A DNA stretch of 64,000 nt, taken from positions 62,001 to 126,000 of the forward strand of contig SVNC01000004.1 in the NCBI GenBank assembly GCA_015067025.1, given 5' to 3'. Each line of letters starts with the position of its first letter. Position 1 is the stretch's first letter. Below are positions 1,949 through 50,256 of the stretch, in pieces. Position numbers and translations under genes: made by a program. This DNA comes from Oscillospiraceae bacterium (GTDB lineage: Bacteria; Bacillota; Clostridia; Oscillospirales; Ruminococcaceae). Under the pieces are notes generated by a model. The model had not been told where the DNA came from. It saw only the letters and a program-made list of their open reading frames with translations, and did no database searches.

Positions 1949-2959
1949 TTAAGCAATAACCTCGTCTTCCTTACCACCCTTGGAGATAACAAGCACGCCC
2001 TGATCTTCGAGTCCGCGGATGATGGATACGATTCTCTGCTGAGCCTCTTCAACGTCACGCATACGAATATTGTGCAGGTACTCTACGTCGGTCTGTGTGC
2101 TTTCTCTCATACGGGTCGACATATTGGAGTAGATGCACTCCGCAACCTCGGGTGTAGAACCCTTGATAGCAATAGCAAGATCCTTTGAGTCCACTTCGGG
2201 AATGAACGCCTGGATAGCCATAGTATCGAGAGATACGATATCCTCGAACACGAACATCTTTGATCGGATCTCGTCGGCAAGCTTCGGGTCTCTTAAGTTC
2301 AGTTCATCGAAGATGTGCTTTTCTGTTGCTCTGTCTACGTTGTTAAGTACGTCAGCAACGTAGTTGATACCGCCGACTTCCATACTGTCTGTAGTAATAA
2401 GGCTGGCAAACTTCTTTTCAAGAGTCTGCTCAATGGATTTGATAACGTCAGGTGAAGCCCTGTCCATCTTAGCCATACGCTCAACTACGTCAATACGGGT
2501 CTTTTTCGGCAATTCGCTGAGTATCGCCGAAGCCTGGTCGCTTCTTGCATAGGAGAGAATCAGTGCAATAGTCTGCGGATGCTCGTTCTGTACAATAGCA
2601 AGCAGGTTTTTATAGTCAGCCTTTCTTACAAAAGCAAACGCCTTCGTCTTAAGCTGTTTTGTAATCTTTTCAAAAAGTGCCTGAGCCGCCGCCTCACCAA
2701 AGGCTTTTTCAAGTACGTCACGGGCGTACTCTACACCGCCCTCGGATATAACCTTCTGGGTAAGGCAAAGCTCGTAAAACTCGTTAAGCACTTCGTCAAC
2801 CGTATCCATAGGATAATAATCCATACGGGCAAGCTCAAAGGTCACCTGCTCAACCTCTTCATCGGTAAAATGCTTGAACACCTCAGAGGCGTTCTCCGTA
2901 CCGATTGAAGAGATGATTATAGCCGCCTTCTGGGTATTTGTAAGTGATACACTACTCAT
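1949..2959 (-). CDS. fliG: Flagellar motor switch protein FliG
   Basis: FliG is the rotor protein of the C-ring; it binds FliF at its N-terminus and meets the MotA stator with its C-terminal domain. The 336-residue product has normal family length. It opens with MSSVSLTNTQKAAIIISSIG, carries the middle-domain segment EHPQTIALILSYARSDQASAIL (with the conserved EHPQ), and the C-terminal FVFEDIVSLDTMAIQAF, which holds the torque helix (F-x-F-E-D-I). ATG at 2959 follows AAGGG by about 10 bases. It lies 23 bases downstream of fliF in the operon. All three FliG domains can be seen, so identity is secure. Confidence 0.97.
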   Translation of the reverse strand: MSSVSLTNTQKAAIIISSIGTENASEVFKHFTDEEVEQVTFELARMDYYPMDTVDEVLNEFYELCLTQKVISEGGVEYARDVLEKAFGEAAAQALFEKITKQLKTKAFAFVRKADYKNLLAIVQNEHPQTIALILSYARSDQASAILSELPKKTRIDVVERMAKMDRASPDVIKSIEQTLEKKFASLITTDSMEVGGINYVADVLNNVDRATEKHIFDELNLRDPKLADEIRSKMFVFEDIVSLDTMAIQAFIPEVDSKDLAIAIKGSTPEVAECIYSNMSTRMRESTQTDVEYLHNIRMRDVEEAQQRIVSIIRGLEDQGVLVISKGGKEDEVIA

Positions 2960-2982
2960 CTATATCATCCCTTTAATCTTAA

Positions 2983-4602
2983 TTATTCGTCTCTTAAAAG
3001 CGAACGGATAAGCTGTGCCACAACGTCGGGGTTTGTATGGGAGAATTCCTTGATCTCCTTGCGGAGAAGTGCACCCTTTGACTCGTTGTTGTAGTCGTCC
3101 AGCTTCTGAACGATAAATTCCTCTTCTTCCTGAACCGCAGGCTCGTAGGTAAGCTGTGCCGCCTGAGCCTCTGCGGCTGCCGCTGCTGCCGCTGCCGCTC
3201 TTTCTCTCGCCTTTGCCTTTTTCTTCTTCTTTGAATTGCCTGCAAGAATTGCAATGATGAGAAGCATAAGCACAAAGAAGCCGAGAGAAACGATAAGCAG
3301 ATACATCCAGTCTGTGTTGTTGCCACCGCCGAGAATACCGTTGTTGCCTGTATTGCCGTGGCTGGGATTGATAACGAATGGGTAATTTGCAACCGTTACG
3401 TTTGCCACCTCTGCACCGATCGCAAAGGCTACTACCTCACGGAGAGTTTCCTTCTCCGCTTCAAGCATACTGGTTTCGTCTACCGTTACCGCCGCAGTTA
3501 TTCTGTCAATGGAGTAACCGCTCTTTTCAAGCTGTTTTATTTCAGTATTTACGAGATGCTTTACCGTTGTGGAATTCTGATAATAATATTCTCCGTCCTC
3601 GTCACCCTCGATGGTGGGGTAGTTGGGAGAGATATCGCTGTTGCCCGTAGTACCCACTACACCTGATAATGAACCGATACCGCCCCAGCCTTCGTTCTTG
3701 GTGGTACTTTCGATCATACCGCCCAGTGTGCCGTCCTCAGCAATGGAGGGGGTGTATATGGTAAGCTCGGACTTTGACTTGTCAAAGTTCAGTGCTACGT
3801 TTACGTTTATGGTGTAATCCTTATAGAGCTTTTTAAGCGTGCTGTCAAGCTGTTCTTCAAGGAGCTTCTGTACTCTTTCCTGGAAATTAAGTCTTGACTG
3901 ATAGAGTGCGTCCTCTTCGACTGTGCCTGTATCACCCGTCAGAAGCTCGCCGTTGGAATCAACCACTGATATGTTTTCCTTTTTCAATCCGGGCAGAGAA
4001 TTCAGAATAAGCGCATAGATACCTTCGACCTGGTCTGAAGTAAGAGTGTATCCGCTTCTTAACTCCAGCATCGCACTTACTCTCGGATCTTCCTCGTCGT
4101 CGGAAATAACGTAGTTGTTATTTTCGGGAAGAGTGATTATTACTCTTGAGCTTTCAACGCCCTTTATGCAGTTTATGGAATTCATCAGATGGGTCTGGAG
4201 CTGTTGTATCTGAAGTACCTTCTTTTCGGTATCGGTTGACCACATACCTATTCCGTTATTCCAGATATCAAAATTGAAGGTGGATTTCGGATAGCCCTGA
4301 ATACTCAGCTGCATTCTTATGTTGTCAGCCTGCTCCGCAGGTACTCTGATACTGCCGTCCGTACCCATAACAACGTCGGTTATGCCAAGATCGTTGATAG
4401 CCGCAACTACCTGTCCTGCCTCCTCGTTGCCAAGTCCCGTATAAATTGCAGTATAGCTTTTCTGGTTAAGTATTACCGTAAGCACGATAGCCGCCACTAT
4501 AACAACACTCAGGGCTGTTATTATGAATACCTTCGTACCCTTGGCGACGGCTTTCCACTTTTCGACAAAGCTTTTCCAGAAAGAAGAAAGTTTCTCTTTC
4601 AT
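2983..4602 (-). CDS. fliF: Flagellar MS-ring protein FliF
   Basis: FliF forms the membrane MS-ring on which the basal body and C-ring are built. The 539-residue protein has one N-terminal transmembrane helix (about residues 24-44, VFIITALSVVIVAAIVLTVI), a large extracytoplasmic part with ring-building YscJ/FliF-type domains (TAIYTGLGNEEAGQVVAAIN; VESSRVIITLPENN), a second helix near residues 435-460 (WMYLLIVSLGFFVLMLLIIA) and a cytoplasmic tail. An Ala-rich stretch (ARERAAAAAAAAAEAQAA) precedes the FliG-binding end DVVAQLIRSLLRDE. Start ATG 4602 follows AAGGA. The protein is complete and in the expected operon position after fliE. Confidence 0.97.
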   Translation of the reverse strand: MKEKLSSFWKSFVEKWKAVAKGTKVFIITALSVVIVAAIVLTVILNQKSYTAIYTGLGNEEAGQVVAAINDLGITDVVMGTDGSIRVPAEQADNIRMQLSIQGYPKSTFNFDIWNNGIGMWSTDTEKKVLQIQQLQTHLMNSINCIKGVESSRVIITLPENNNYVISDDEEDPRVSAMLELRSGYTLTSDQVEGIYALILNSLPGLKKENISVVDSNGELLTGDTGTVEEDALYQSRLNFQERVQKLLEEQLDSTLKKLYKDYTINVNVALNFDKSKSELTIYTPSIAEDGTLGGMIESTTKNEGWGGIGSLSGVVGTTGNSDISPNYPTIEGDEDGEYYYQNSTTVKHLVNTEIKQLEKSGYSIDRITAAVTVDETSMLEAEKETLREVVAFAIGAEVANVTVANYPFVINPSHGNTGNNGILGGGNNTDWMYLLIVSLGFFVLMLLIIAILAGNSKKKKKAKARERAAAAAAAAAEAQAAQLTYEPAVQEEEEFIVQKLDDYNNESKGALLRKEIKEFSHTNPDVVAQLIRSLLRDE

Positions 4603-35869: not shown

Positions 35870-36448
35870 TTATACTAACTTTGTACCAAGCTCGAAAGCC
35901 TTTTCGTTGATTTCAATAACCTTCTTAGGTACACATTCTTCTACAGCCTTTTTCCAAGCCGCTTCATCAAAGCCCTTTAATACCTTTGATAAAACACCCA
36001 TAAGAACAACGTTTACTGCCTTTGCACTACCCGCTTCGTTAGCGGCGGAAAGTGCGTCAACTGCGATAAGATCAATACCCTTATCGGCAATCTTTTCGAG
36101 GAGTCCCTCGGGATACTGTGCCGCACCTGTGATAACAGGCATGGGGCTTATCTTCTGTGAGTTTGTGATAACTGTACCGCCCTTTTTGAGAGAGGAAAGC
36201 CATCTTGCAGCTTCAAGCTGTTCAAAGGATACGATGATATCAGCCTGACCCTTTTCGATAACAGGGCTGTATACCTTTTCACCATACTTGATGTAGGTTA
36301 CTACAGAACCGCCACGCTGGCTCATTCCGTGTACCTCACTTACCTTTACGTCATAGCCTGCAGAGCCTAAAACGTTACCTAATATACGGCTGGCAAGCAG
36401 AGTACCCTGACCGCCAACGCCTACGATCATAATTGAATTTGTGTTCAT
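35870..36448 (-). CDS. iorB: Indolepyruvate:ferredoxin oxidoreductase beta subunit
   Basis: IorB is the gamma-domain-like subunit of the arylpyruvate:ferredoxin oxidoreductase. ATG 36448 follows GGGGG; a longer frame would overlap iorA. The 192-residue product starts MNTNSIMIVGVGGQGTLLAS (glycine-rich CoA/TPP-side loop), then SEVHGMSQRGGSVVTYIKYG (S-x-x-x-Q-R-G-G family motif) and ADIIVSFEQLEAARWLSSLK. It sits 13 bases after iorA. The enzyme interconverts arylpyruvate plus CoA with arylacetyl-CoA, CO2 and reduced ferredoxin, and is reversible in anaerobes. Confidence 0.95.
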   Translation of the reverse strand: MNTNSIMIVGVGGQGTLLASRILGNVLGSAGYDVKVSEVHGMSQRGGSVVTYIKYGEKVYSPVIEKGQADIIVSFEQLEAARWLSSLKKGGTVITNSQKISPMPVITGAAQYPEGLLEKIADKGIDLIAVDALSAANEAGSAKAVNVVLMGVLSKVLKGFDEAAWKKAVEECVPKKVIEINEKAFELGTKLV

Positions 36449-36461
36449 ATTTCTGTCCCCC

Positions 36462-38195
36462 TTATTCTTCGATAGCACCGAACTTGCACATCTGGTTGCA
36501 AAGTCCGCAGCCTACGCAGAGTGTAGCGTCAATAGTTACACCGTTTTCGCCCCAGCATAATGCAGGACAGCCTATCTTCATACAAGCCTTGCAGTTCTTG
36601 CACTTGTCGGGATTAATTTTAAAGGGAGCTTTATGCTTTACAGTCTTGAGAAGTGCACAAGGACGGCGTGCGATAATTACAGAAGGTTCATCCTTTGCAA
36701 GCTCTTCCTTGATTACGCTTTCAGTTTCAGTAAGGTTATTGGGGTCAATAACTCTTACGCTGCTTATACCAACTGCCTTTGCAAGTGCTTCAAGATTAAC
36801 TGCCGCCGCAGGGTCGCCGTAAATATTCATACCGTTTGCGGGGTTATTCTGATGTCCTGTCATACCTGTGATGCTGTTATCAAGGATGAGGACTGTAGAA
36901 TTACTTCTGTTGTATGCGATATTGATAAGACCTGTAACGCCGCTGTGGATAAAGGTGCTGTCACCGATAACCGCTACAGACTTGCCTTCAAACTCGCCCT
37001 TTCTACCCTTATTAAAGCCGTGCAGACCGCTTACAGACGCACCCATACATACTGTAGTATCAATAGCTGATAAAGGAGCGGCAGAGCCTAACGTATAGCA
37101 ACCGATATCGCCGCTTAACATTACGCCAAGCTTCTTTAATATGTAGAATACACCTCTGTGGGGACATCCTGCGCAAAGTACGGGAGGACGAACGGGAATA
37201 GCCTCGTCAAGAACTGTAAATTCGTCAGTTTCGTTTAAGATAACCTGCTTTATCTTGCTCTGGAAATATTCGCCCTGGAGTGTAAATAATTCCTTACCCT
37301 TTACTTCAATACCGTTCTTGCGGCAATGGGTTTCGATAACGTCGTCAAGCTCTTCGATAACGTATAAGGTCTTAACCTTAGCGGCAAATTCCTTGATAAG
37401 ATTTACAGGCAGGGGATTTACCATACCAAGCTTTAAATAGCTTGCCTTGTCCCCTAAAGCTTCTTTAGCAAACTGGTAGCAGATACCTGATGTGATAACA
37501 CCGATTTCATCGCTGTTCATTTCAATAGTGTTGATACCTGAATTTTCTGCATATTCAGTAAGCTTTAAGGTTCTTTCTTCAACTACAACGTGCTTTTTGA
37601 TAGCATTTGCAGGAACCATTACGTACTTAGCGATATCCTTCTTATATTCGGGAAGAGCCTTTTCAACTCTGTCGCATTCTTCAACAGTAGACTGGGAATG
37701 GCTTACTCTTGTTGTAAGTCTTAAGATTACGGGAGTATCAAACTGCTCGGAGATCTCATAGGCTAGCTTTGTGTATTCCTTACATTCAGCAGAATCGGAG
37801 GGCTCTAACATAGGAACCTTTGCACCGATTGCATAGTGACGGGAATCCTGCTCATTCTGTGAGCTGTGCATACCCGGGTCGTCAGCAACCGCTAAAACAA
37901 AACCGCCGTTTACACCTGTGTAGGAGGCAGTGAATAAGGGGTCAGCCGCAACGTTTAAGCCTACGTGCTTCATAGCACAGAAGCTTCTTGCACCTGCAAT
38001 GCTTGCACCGATCGCTACTTCGCAGGCTACCTTTTCATTAGGAGCCCATTCACAGTACATTTCTTCCGCATTGTATTTTGATGCGAACTCTGTTATTTCG
38101 GTACTGGGTGTACCGGGATAGCTTGATACCACGCTGACGCCTGCTTCGTATAAGCCACGGGCTACAGCCTGGTTACCTAACATTAATTTTGCCAT
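36462..38195 (-). CDS. iorA: Indolepyruvate:ferredoxin oxidoreductase alpha subunit
   Basis: IorA carries the thiamine-diphosphate centre and a ferredoxin-like domain. I start at ATG 38195 (AAAGGA upstream), giving 577 residues beginning MAKLMLGNQAVARGLYEAGV. The pyrimidine domain has SSYPGTPSTEITEF; the TPP-binding domain has LCAGCPHRGVFYILKKLG and GDSTFIHSGVTGLINIAYNR. The C-terminal part has two cluster motifs, INPDKCKNCKACMKIGCPAL and DATLCVGCGLCNQMCKFGAI. The complete operon iorA-iorB-aguA-aguB runs from the promoter at 38250. The preferred acid (indole-, phenyl- or hydroxyphenylpyruvate) cannot be read from the sequence. Confidence 0.96.
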   Translation of the reverse strand: MAKLMLGNQAVARGLYEAGVSVVSSYPGTPSTEITEFASKYNAEEMYCEWAPNEKVACEVAIGASIAGARSFCAMKHVGLNVAADPLFTASYTGVNGGFVLAVADDPGMHSSQNEQDSRHYAIGAKVPMLEPSDSAECKEYTKLAYEISEQFDTPVILRLTTRVSHSQSTVEECDRVEKALPEYKKDIAKYVMVPANAIKKHVVVEERTLKLTEYAENSGINTIEMNSDEIGVITSGICYQFAKEALGDKASYLKLGMVNPLPVNLIKEFAAKVKTLYVIEELDDVIETHCRKNGIEVKGKELFTLQGEYFQSKIKQVILNETDEFTVLDEAIPVRPPVLCAGCPHRGVFYILKKLGVMLSGDIGCYTLGSAAPLSAIDTTVCMGASVSGLHGFNKGRKGEFEGKSVAVIGDSTFIHSGVTGLINIAYNRSNSTVLILDNSITGMTGHQNNPANGMNIYGDPAAAVNLEALAKAVGISSVRVIDPNNLTETESVIKEELAKDEPSVIIARRPCALLKTVKHKAPFKINPDKCKNCKACMKIGCPALCWGENGVTIDATLCVGCGLCNQMCKFGAIEE

Positions 38196-38249
38196 AATAA
38201 AAATTCCTTTCGGTAAAAATTTACATAGTTCTTCATTATAGATAGTATC

Positions 38250-38278
38250 ATTATACACTATTTTTTGCCTGTTGTAAA
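38250..38278 (-). promoter_or_regulatory. Promoter of the ior-agu operon
   Basis: On the minus strand TTTACA (38273-38278), 17 bases, TATAAT (38250-38255), about 55 bases before iorA. No T-box or terminator-like leader is present between them. Confidence 0.78.
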
Positions 38279-47564: not shown

Positions 47565-49901
47565 TTATTCAGATTTCTTTGCGTCCTGCTCACGGATCTC
47601 GCTTCTTCTGATCTTTCCGCTGCCTACAGTCTTGGGCAGGCTGTCACGGAATTCGATAACTCTCGGATACTTATAAGGAGCCGTCTGATTCTTAACGTAA
47701 GTCTGGATCTCCTTTTTAAGCTCGTCGCTGGGTTCTGTACCCTTTGTAAGAACGATGGTAGCCTTTACGAGCTGACCTCTTATCTCATCAGGAACACCTG
47801 TAACCGCACATTCAAGAACGTAAGGAAGCTCCATGATAACACTTTCGATTTCGAAAGGTCCGATGCGGTAGCCTGATGACTTGATAAGGTCGTCAACTCT
47901 ACCGATGTACCAGTAGTAACCGTCTTCGTCCATACGGGCAGTATCACCTGTGTGGTACCAGCCGTCGTGCCATGCTTCCTTTGTGCTTTCTTCATTATTA
48001 TAATAGCTCATAAACAGACCGCAAGGTTTCTTGCCGTTTGTTCTGATGCAGATCTCACCTGTTTCGCCATCTCCTGCCTCTGTACCGTCGGCATTAAGGA
48101 TATGCACGTCATAGAGAGGATTGGGCTTGCCCATACTGCCGGGCTTTGGAGTCATACCAACGAAGTTTGCAACGGAAAGGGTGGTTTCCGTCTGACCGAA
48201 ACCTTCCATAAGAGAGATGCCTGTAGCCTTCTTAAACTGGTGGAATACTTCAGGGTTAAGAGCCTCACCTGCTATAGTTGCATACTTAAGACTTGAAAGA
48301 TCGTACTTTGACAGATCCTCCTTTATAAAGAAGCGGTACATTGTAGGGGGTGCACAGAAGGTTGTGATGTTGTACTTTGCAAACATCGGCAGGATATCTT
48401 CTGCATGGAAGCGTTCAAAGTCGTAAACGAATACGGCAGTTTCGCACATCCACTGACCGTAGAGCTTACCCCAGAGTGCTTTGCCCCAGCCGGTATCGGA
48501 GATGGTGAAGTGGATACCGTTAGGGTCTACATTGTGCCAGTATCTTGCTGTCGTATAATGACCTAAAGGATACTTAAAGTCGTGCATTGCGATCTTGGGA
48601 TAACCTGTTGTACCTGACGTAAAGAACATCAGCATAGGGTCGCTGCCGCAAGCAGTATTTTCCGTTCTGGGGAACTTGCCGCTGTAAGAAGGAAGCTCTT
48701 CGTCAAAATCGTTCCAACCATCTCTGCTGCCGCCTACTAATATCTTTGTCTTAAGGGACTTGCAGTTAGGTGCTGCTAAATCTATTTCATCTGCTACTGC
48801 GCCATCAGCAGTACATACAACTGCGGATATTTCAGCAGCGTCAAAGCGGTATTCAAAGTCGTGCTTTACAAGCTGGTTTGACGCAGGGATAACCACAGCA
48901 CCCAATCTGTGCAGTGCAAGGATAGAGAACCAGAACTGATAGTGTCTTTTCAATACCAGCATCACCTTGTCGCCCTTCTTTATGCCAAGGGACTTGAAGT
49001 AATTTGCTGTCTGGCAGGAATACTTCATTATATCCTTAAAGGTAAACTTACGCTCGCTCTTATCGTCAGCCACGTGGATCATAGCCACCTTATCGGGACA
49101 CTTTTCCGCAAGAGCGTCAACGATATCATAAGCGAAGTTGAAGCTTTCTTCATTATGGAACTTAACGCCTGATAAAAGTCCCTGCTCGTCTGTTTCGCAG
49201 GATACGAATTTATCTGCAACGGGATGAGATATACCGGCCTTGTAGAAGTTGGAGTGGGTGTACTTTCTCACCTGCTCGTGATATTCCACAGTCTGCTCAC
49301 CGTCACGGGGTGCCATAACGAAAGCGTAGATCTCACAGTCCTCACCGCCCAGTGCTATTTCATCGTGGGGCATTGAGCTGTCGTAGTAGATGCAATCGCC
49401 CTCGTGAAGTGTTTCCACGTGAGTACCGATTATCATACGTAAAGTACCCTTGACAACGATATCCATTTCCTGACCTGCGTGACTTGCAAGGTGACGGGGA
49501 GAGCTTAAAGCCTCCTCGGAATAAGGAATAACAACGTGGAAGGGTTCTGTTATCCTATCCTTGAATTTATATGCAAGGTGATTATATTCAAAGCCTGCTC
49601 TTCTTACGATAGGCTTACCCTTGCCTCTTCTTGTAACTGTGTAGCCTGTAAGCTCAGGGCTGTCGCCACCCATAAGCTCGGCAATGTCAACACCGAATAC
49701 GCCTGCACATTTGTGGATAAAGGTGAAGCTAAAGTCGGTCTCACCCTTTTCCATCTTCTTGTATTCTTCGACAGAAAGACCTGTCTTTGCCGCCATAGTT
49801 GTGGCGGAAATGCCCATATCCTCACGAAGAGTACGGATACGCTGTGCAACCTCACGGATACTCTGTTCGGTCGCATTCATAACATTGTTGTTTTCTGACA
49901 T
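47565..49901 (-). CDS. HTH-cupin-acyl-CoA synthetase fusion under T-box control
   Basis: The 778-residue protein joins three parts. Residues about 15-70 are an Xre-type helix-turn-helix (IRTLREDMGISATTMAAKTG). About 115-205 form a cupin (PRHLASHAGQEMDIVVKGTL, EGDCIYYDSSMPHDE). From about 255 to the end is an ANL-family acyl-CoA synthetase of the medium-chain/aryl type, with the P-loop MFFTSGTTGYPK near 424-434, EGFGQTETT, YWYIGRVDDLIKSSGYRIGP and the catalytic lysine in GSGKIRRSEI. It should adenylate a carboxylic acid and load it on CoA; the cupin-HTH part could sense the acid. The T-box leader implies response to an uncharged tRNA, which makes an amino-acid precursor (such as an aryl acetate) a plausible substrate. 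Confidence 0.88.
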   Translation of the reverse strand: MSENNNVMNATEQSIREVAQRIRTLREDMGISATTMAAKTGLSVEEYKKMEKGETDFSFTFIHKCAGVFGVDIAELMGGDSPELTGYTVTRRGKGKPIVRRAGFEYNHLAYKFKDRITEPFHVVIPYSEEALSSPRHLASHAGQEMDIVVKGTLRMIIGTHVETLHEGDCIYYDSSMPHDEIALGGEDCEIYAFVMAPRDGEQTVEYHEQVRKYTHSNFYKAGISHPVADKFVSCETDEQGLLSGVKFHNEESFNFAYDIVDALAEKCPDKVAMIHVADDKSERKFTFKDIMKYSCQTANYFKSLGIKKGDKVMLVLKRHYQFWFSILALHRLGAVVIPASNQLVKHDFEYRFDAAEISAVVCTADGAVADEIDLAAPNCKSLKTKILVGGSRDGWNDFDEELPSYSGKFPRTENTACGSDPMLMFFTSGTTGYPKIAMHDFKYPLGHYTTARYWHNVDPNGIHFTISDTGWGKALWGKLYGQWMCETAVFVYDFERFHAEDILPMFAKYNITTFCAPPTMYRFFIKEDLSKYDLSSLKYATIAGEALNPEVFHQFKKATGISLMEGFGQTETTLSVANFVGMTPKPGSMGKPNPLYDVHILNADGTEAGDGETGEICIRTNGKKPCGLFMSYYNNEESTKEAWHDGWYHTGDTARMDEDGYYWYIGRVDDLIKSSGYRIGPFEIESVIMELPYVLECAVTGVPDEIRGQLVKATIVLTKGTEPSDELKKEIQTYVKNQTAPYKYPRVIEFRDSLPKTVGSGKIRRSEIREQDAKKSE

Positions 49902-49945
49902 TGTGTTTTACTCCTTTCGTTGTTGTGGGGCATAGGCTGTATAAA

Positions 49946-50220
49946 TAAAAAAACCCGCCCCAAAGTGTTTTACTTTGAGACGAGATTAAACCCGCGGTAC
50001 CACTCAAATTGCGTTTTGCTATTGCTCAACGCCACTTCAGACTCGCCACTTACGGTACAAGCCCTATGCATTAACGCAGCCTCACGAGAACGCTTACTGA
50101 AATTTCAGCATTCCAACTCAGAAGGGATGCACTCTGCTTGCCGTTACTGTCTCGCACCGCCCGACAGCTCTCTGAAAACATCTCAATACAGAATGTGTGT
50201 CTTCGTCATCGTTTTTTTGA
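49946..50220 (-). ncRNA. T-box riboswitch leader (aromatic, probably Trp specifier)
   Basis: On the minus strand the leader shows Stem I with AGAGAGCTG and GGTGCGAGACAG. The specifier-loop strand CATCCCTTCTGAGTTGGAAT lies near 50108-50127, and the T-box core GAGTGGTACCGCGGGTT at 49989-50005. An intrinsic terminator ends the leader (arms 49972-49984 and 49954-49966, then seven Us). Reading TGAG, one base, then codon followed by A gives UGG (Trp). UUG (Leu) is the next register, and the UGGU bulge would need wobble with a G73 tRNA. Uncharged tRNA should stabilise the antiterminator and switch on the acyl-CoA synthetase gene. Confidence 0.92.
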
Positions 50221-50227
50221 TATTGCA

Positions 50228-50256
50228 ATTATACACCCATGTTTTTTATTTGTCAA
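50228..50256 (-). promoter_or_regulatory. Consensus promoter of the T-box transcript
   Basis: On the minus strand TTGACA (50251-50256), 17 bases, TATAAT (50228-50233), both perfect, immediately before the T-box leader. Confidence 0.9.

Follow-up and report, generated by a model that had tools for sequence, protein, structure and literature searches.

Organization of the T-box locus

The DNA considered here, referred to as the window, is a stretch of 64,000 nucleotides from contig SVNC01000004.1 of an Oscillospiraceae bacterium (GTDB family Ruminococcaceae). At positions 47,565 to 50,256 it carries, on the minus strand, a T-box leader RNA in front of a gene for an acyl-CoA synthetase, with the following features:

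50228..50256, minus strand: sigma-70 consensus promoter TTGACA-17-TATAAT, 12 of 12 consensus positions
49973..50218, minus strand: T-box leader RNA (RF00230, cmscan)
50116..50212, minus strand: Stem I (Stem I alignment and covariance model)
50204-50201 with 50124-50121, minus strand: lower helix of Stem I, GAAG/CUUC (Stem I alignment, covariation)
50126..50128, minus strand: specifier codon AUC, isoleucine (Rfam alignment column and Stem I model column)
49993..50006, minus strand: T-box core UGAGUGGUACCGCG
50002-49999, minus strand: UGGU bulge within the core, for the tRNA NCCA end; fits discriminator A73
49954..49984, minus strand: intrinsic terminator competing with the antiterminator; 13-pair stem and T tract
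47565..49901, minus strand: helix-turn-helix (HTH)-cupin-acyl-CoA synthetase fusion of 778 aa, proposed to be a 2-methylbutyrate-CoA ligase (Pfam, NCBIfam, PDB)
48483..48485, minus strand: codon of Gly473 (motif SDTGWGK); this residue tracks the specifier, being Gly under Ile and Ala under Val T-boxes

The leader matches RF00230 along the entire model (window 50218-49973, minus strand; model positions 1 to 219 of 219; 112.9 bits, E = 3.7e-24), above the gathering score of 93 bits, and is the only match at that level in the whole 64 kb. Both the antiterminator bulge with its UGGU core and the competing terminator (49984-49954) are present, and region 49940-50050, a span that includes the terminator hairpin, folds with a z score of -3.3 relative to shuffles. 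Promoter, Stem I, T-box core and terminator had been placed correctly, coordinates included, in the original prediction made from the DNA alone. Its view of the locus as a T-box on an acyl-CoA synthetase agrees with RF00230 and Pfam, but its assignment to an aromatic amino acid, probably Trp, has to be replaced, the specifier being AUC. With Stem I, specifier, core, antiterminator and terminator, the leader resembles the isoleucine class of T-boxes found on ileS and ilv genes; it differs in its target, which is an acyl-CoA ligase rather than a tRNA synthetase, a transporter or a classical biosynthetic gene.

The specifier codon and its register

The specifier column of the window leader (L001) holds AUC in the Rfam alignment and likewise in a Stem I covariance model built from orthologous leaders (described below), the same codon as in the ileS and ilvABCD leaders of its own genome. 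The comparison set consisted of the window leader and the 11 other T-boxes of this genome (12 in total). Among the controlled genes, ilv, leu, ileS, proS, cysE-cysS, pheST, DAHP synthase, gatB and tyrS were recognized from their translations; for the aspS-type gene, the PALP gene and the AMP-binding fusion, Pfam was consulted. After the specifier, the window leader has CCCUUCUGAG in common with three of these leaders, which precede ilvA-ilvB-ilvC-ilvD (AUC), a RidA-leuA operon (CUC) and the gene of an 852-aa TIM-barrel-AMP-binding protein (CUC). The Stem I model recovered 10 of the 12 T-boxes, missing those of cysE and pheST, and its codons fit the genes in eight controls: leuA CUC, ilvABCD AUC, ileS AUC, proS CCC, DAHP/tyrS UAC, DAHP UUC, aspS-gat AAC and PALP/trpB-like UGG (E = 0.006). 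The Rfam alignment gave UGC for the cysE leader, and among the own-genome leaders shown its specifier column fits the gene in all but pheST.

Three observations speak against reading the window codon as AUC for isoleucine. In the pheST leader (G000:C10:42247-42484, minus strand; L009), the Rfam column contains UCG and the fitting Phe codon UUC lies one base upstream, so that a register error of one base is possible in principle. The base 3' of the window specifier is a C, versus the usual purine. Finally, tRNA-Ile(GAU) was not found among the 44 tRNA matches of the genome, presumably because of a gap in the assembly, which consists of 29 contigs and may lack ribosomal clusters; the discriminators that were found are A for Val, Leu and Phe, G for Trp and U for Cys.

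A shifted register would make the specifier UGC (Cys) or GCA (Ala), and in the window taken alone UGC is indeed followed by an A. Across 58 orthologous leaders, however, triplets shifted by 1 to 4 bases vary while AUC, GUA or GUC stays constant; this comparison had been pre-filtered for these three codons, and the 142 unfiltered units described below agree with it. For cysteine in particular, the window bulge is UGGU as opposed to UGGA in the genome's own Cys T-box, and tRNA-Cys has U73. We rate the probability of a Cys or Ala specifier as close to negligible, and regard the window leader as almost certainly a transcriptional T-box specific for isoleucine.

Orthologous leaders carry isoleucine or valine specifiers

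Matches to the ligase at an E value of 1e-100 or better occur in 190 of the 297 genomes of the family. We examined 170 orthologue loci, composed of two sets of 30 and 60 and the best 80 of at least 594 confirmed stretches. Earlier codon callers built on regular expressions had returned AUC, GUA or GUC in 118 of 126 called leaders, the 8 other codons being judged miscalls by eye; they left further leaders uncalled and were wrong for several controls. Because these callers were ambiguous or wrong in part of the leaders, a covariance model was used instead, built from a Stem I alignment of 58 leaders and run over 94, 80 and 30 loci. In this alignment 98.4% of the cells are paired, with both-side changes in 103 cells (24 in shuffles) and a covariation score of 0.521 (0.189 when shuffled), and sliding the partners by one base lowers pairing to at most 50%. 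As the 58 training leaders had been pre-filtered for AUC/GUA/GUC and for a Watson-Crick lower helix, the absence of mismatches in that helix is partly a product of selection, which does not apply to the equally mismatch-free other two helices.

The scan covered 162 of the 170 loci. Left out were L021, L043, L046, L048 and L050, whose genes were scanned as L001, L060, L052, L051 and L057, and L028, L038 and L039, which have less than 210 nt upstream. In the 142 matched ligase units—duplicates kept, the window itself (L001, AUC) not included—the specifiers are AUC (120), GUA (18), GUC (3) and UUC (1). The sole UUC unit, from Neglectibacter timonensis (L162), has an insertion that shifts the match, and its leader holds AUC C CUUC CGAGC; we take UUC to be a misregister and read AUC by eye. 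Ruminococcus flavefaciens SAb67 (L116) and the metagenome-assembled genome UBA1190 (L119) both show AUC; the contig of a third R. flavefaciens record (L118) stops before Stem I is reached. The specifier conserved among orthologues is thus non-aromatic, AUC with valine variants, an outcome named in the original prediction as one that would contradict it.

By eye, the Ile and Val ligase leaders (window 50116-50212 and the Stem I alignment) are without the usual AGUA/GAA specifier-loop motif. Their specifier loop is short and asymmetric, with mostly A, C or G after the codon.

The ligase resembles enzymes for branched short-chain acids

The 778-aa protein comprises the Pfam domains HTH_3 (residues 22-76), Cupin_2 (131-193), AMP-binding (265-633) and AMP-binding_C (684-758). 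Its best NCBIfam model is MbcS (NF047394; 447.8 bits) and its best PDB match is 3ETC, MacsMa from Methanosarcina acetivorans (669 bits, E = 5.7e-200, residues 245-774). According to the accessible part of its description, MacsMa prefers 2-methylbutyrate, and its Trp259 is critical for substrate binding (PMC10455477). W455 of the window ligase, invariant in 13 orthologues, aligns with 3ETC chain index 260, which we take to be Trp259 of MacsMa, making W455 the likely equivalent of the pocket Trp. The window ligase accordingly combines an AMP-binding domain, a C-terminal domain and the conserved pocket Trp, as expected of a MacsMa-like enzyme, and the two share the Gly of the aligned GWGK motif; MacsMa differs in being archaeal and in that its solved chain (580 aa) is without the HTH-cupin part. 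For MbcS of Staphylococcus aureus, the reported Km lies below 10 uM with 2-methylbutyrate or isobutyrate, is 144 uM with butyrate and exceeds 500 uM with isovalerate (PMC10026030). Its substrates match the Ile and Val specifiers, whereas its role differs, as it serves membrane lipids and not amino acids. Judged by these sequence relationships, the window enzyme probably activates 2-methylbutyrate.

After removal of identical copies and shorter fragments, 194 ligase matches left 182 distinct sequences, each 480 aa or longer. The HTH-cupin part is fused to the ligase in 140 of them, is encoded by a separate neighboring gene in 40 and was undetected in 2, a near-constant pairing that suggests a dedicated regulator. 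This part probably senses a ligand and represses either its own operon or a related one.

A single residue tracks the specifier

A column scan of the ligase domain, comparing 117 Ile-controlled with 14 Val-controlled enzymes, yielded one perfect position, window residue 473, to which two outlying Val-controlled enzymes also conform. Counted over distinct enzymes, this residue is Gly in 119 of 119 under Ile control (118 with AUC, including the window, plus L162) and Ala in 19 of 19 under Val control (16 GUA and 3 GUC). Position 473 presumably lines the acyl pocket, as we assume by analogy with the residue that follows GW in acetyl-CoA synthetases, and a bulkier Ala at this position would favor the smaller isobutyrate. 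A quick tree built from 112 domains places 14 Val-labeled rows together with 4 unlabeled ones in a single supported group of 18 (SH-aLRT 98); two further Val-controlled rows, L074 and L083, branch deeply, and Ile/Val control requires 2 changes. Since residue 473 came out of a column scan and the quick tree implies only about two Ile/Val switches, the independent instances supporting this association are small in number.

Tandem ligases, VOR and the distant IorAB genes

Two consecutive ligase genes are present at 20 loci, and at 17 of these the first is under AUC and the second under GUA or GUC (16 distinct loci, as L051 and L177 are the same contig); the remaining loci have one AUC and no second call (one locus) or no call at all (two). 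Downstream of the ligase and on the same strand, 24 of the 170 loci carry an operon for ketoisovalerate:ferredoxin oxidoreductase (VOR), with 0.8-2.8 kb from ligase to VorB. These represent 20 distinct contigs, because L043, L046 and L048 repeat L060, L052 and L051, and L177 repeats L051. In all 24, a P-loop ATPase gene stands between ligase and VOR, its product 40-50% identical to the ATPase beside the VOR of the window's own genome, where the same ATPase-VorDBAC order is found (VorB 538 bits, cutoff 399) and where PFOR and IorAB are also present. At E 1e-80, VOR occurs in 160 and IorA in 171 of the 297 family genomes.

The original prediction had the enzyme activate indoleacetate or phenylacetate under a Trp (aromatic) T-box, with IorAB as the next step. 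IorAB does lie in the window (35870-38258, minus strand, followed by genes for agmatine deiminase and N-carbamoylputrescine amidase), and the UGGU bulge is wobble-compatible with G73 of tRNA-Trp. The genes are, however, 9.3 kb from the ligase, and neither IorA nor IorB (thresholds 200 and 90 bits) was found in the flanking sequence examined for the 170 orthologue loci, versus VOR downstream in 24; four weak IorB matches among these loci (52-55 bits) coincide with VorC. An aromatic T-box would show UGG, UUY or UAY where the window has AUC, and the specifier column of the 142 units holds no aromatic codon apart from the misregistered L162, which together with the genomic context of IorAB led us to reject the Trp reading. 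A UGG T-box exists elsewhere in the genome, and the nearest characterized enzymes use small branched acids, as far as the accessible texts of PMC10455477 and PMC10026030 go. An aromatic role is thus very improbable. What survives of that proposal, at the level of a predicted pathway, is its kind of logic, an amino acid made through a CoA ligase and a 2-oxoacid:ferredoxin oxidoreductase by reductive carboxylation, without the Trp specificity and without IorAB as the partner.

Other ligases and T-boxes of the genome and family

The window's own genome has a second ligase copy (G000:C28:85194-86816; L260) with a separate HTH-cupin gene upstream and Ala at the position equivalent to 473. The stretch examined around it contains no T-box core, and none of the genome's 12 T-boxes is nearby. 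Four genomes of the same genus have one ligase copy each (E 1e-60), with Gly and with no T-box core in the loci examined; one may speculate that the second copy came to use isobutyrate after the genome had the Ile-controlled gene. Two proteins encoded elsewhere in the genome carry a PaaK-type C-terminal domain and are likelier aromatic-acid ligases than the window enzyme.

A leucine counterpart may exist as well. On contig C11 of the same genome (L018:13077-15635, minus strand; leader L011), a CUC (Leu) T-box precedes the gene of the 852-aa protein. In this protein, a candidate isovalerate-CoA ligase, an acyl-CoA synthetase is joined to a xylose-isomerase-like TIM barrel. Matches to this fusion, or to its AMP-binding part, at E 1e-100 are present in 106 of the 297 family genomes; among the best 30 fusion loci, a Stem I match was obtained in 11, all CUC, and none in the other 19. 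Two genomes (L053, L054) have a Leu (CUC) T-box after VOR, with the TIM-barrel fusion within a few kilobases in the same direction. At L056, a LeuA-like gene (HMGL and LeuA_dimer; 2616-4211, minus strand) with a CUG T-box (Stem I match 4223-4316) adjoins such a fusion, near Ile/Val ligases and VOR.

Of the remaining T-boxes in the genome, the Trp one (UGG) precedes the PALP gene, tryptophan-synthase-beta-like in look, and lies back to back with a divergent AUC T-box before ileS (G000:C11:23821-24347; L004/L012). An Asn (AAC) T-box at G000:C6:34394-34616 (L005/L014) stands before an aspS-type gene followed by amidotransferase-operon-like genes, as expected for indirect Asn-tRNA synthesis.

A proposed route from 2-methylbutyrate to isoleucine

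Labeling work established decades ago that rumen bacteria that degrade cellulose depend on isobutyrate, 2-methylbutyrate and isovalerate, from which they make Val, Ile and Leu. The carboxylation of these isoacids to Ile, Val and Leu in the rumen was reportedly described by Allison, Robinson and others, including in papers of 1966 and 1971 that PMC7356843 cites. The chemistry we predict here is the same, from acid to acyl-CoA, carboxylation and transamination; the gene, the regulator and the VOR partner are what the present proposal adds. Uncharged tRNA-Ile would pair with the AUC specifier and the UGGU bulge and thereby stabilize the antiterminator, allowing RNA polymerase to proceed into the gene of the MacsMa/MbcS-type branched short-chain acyl-CoA synthetase. 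The synthetase would activate 2-methylbutyrate from the surroundings, a waste acid of other microbes, and VOR would reductively carboxylate 2-methylbutyryl-CoA to 3-methyl-2-oxopentanoate, to be transaminated to Ile; paralogues under Val T-boxes would follow the same route with isobutyrate. In rumen fermentation, 2-methylbutyrate is a precursor of Ile and isobutyrate of Val, according to the available text of PMC7356843. We consider it likely that uncharged tRNA-Ile turns on such "isoacid" salvage, with substrate, direction of flux and regulation in vivo assigned by inference.

Several findings sit uneasily with this proposal. The window ligase, at 447.8 bits, does not reach the MbcS equivalog cutoff of 850. 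No T-box was detected for 36 of the 182 distinct enzymes despite at least 330 nt upstream; 44 in all are without a called specifier (in 8, the upstream sequence is shorter than 330 nt), and these comprise 31 with Gly and 13 with Ala at position 473. VorB is present in 19 of the 119 loci having at least 3 kb downstream of the ligase and absent from the other 100, indicating that VOR linkage marks mainly the tandem group, and the VOR of the window's own genome lies on another contig. Lastly, this genome has a complete-looking ilv operon (genes recognized from translations), so that the 2-methylbutyrate route would be a salvage supplement.

The 100 loci with no VOR beside the ligase would also suit a different use of the same Ile T-box and the same 2-methylbutyrate ligase, namely to supply acyl-CoA primers for branched-chain (anteiso) fatty acids of the membrane, with the T-box sparing scarce Ile; MbcS has such a lipid role in S. 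aureus (PMC10026030). Against this, the recurring downstream metabolic neighbor is VOR, even though no search was aimed at lipid genes, and the existence of Val T-box copies and of separate ligases under Leu T-boxes is easier to reconcile with amino acid supply. Lipid priming hence appears unlikely. VOR is reversible, and ligase and VOR could in principle run oxidatively to ferment branched-chain amino acids. A T-box, however, is on when charged tRNA-Ile is scarce, the wrong condition for breaking down Ile, and AMP-forming synthetases normally spend ATP; this direction strikes us as quite improbable.

For the family as a whole, we lean toward the view that T-box specifiers label a set of branched-acid CoA ligases. 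The tandem HTH-cupin ligases next to VOR would be marked Ile for 2-methylbutyrate and Val for isobutyrate, and the unrelated TIM-barrel-AMP-binding fusion Leu for isovalerate. A change of specifier would go along with a change in the pocket, from Gly to Ala at 473, which would let the leader codon read out the substrate of the enzyme. In the open-licence literature searched, insofar as its text was available, we found no report of T-box control of branched-acid CoA ligases and no paper naming the activating CoA ligases of the rumen isoacid route. The terms acyl-CoA, AMP-binding and CoA ligase are absent from the available main texts of the T-box surveys consulted; their supplements or TBDB tables may list individual leaders.

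The Ile and Val T-box ligases suggest candidates for the activating enzymes of the classic rumen pathway. Because the amino acid is given by the specifiers and the carboxylating partner by gene clusters in some relatives, these candidates, their substrates and the single-residue switch are directly testable, including in Ruminococcus flavefaciens. The proposal has implications for isoacid feed supplements as well as for gut cross-feeding, and would extend T-box control to carbon salvage.

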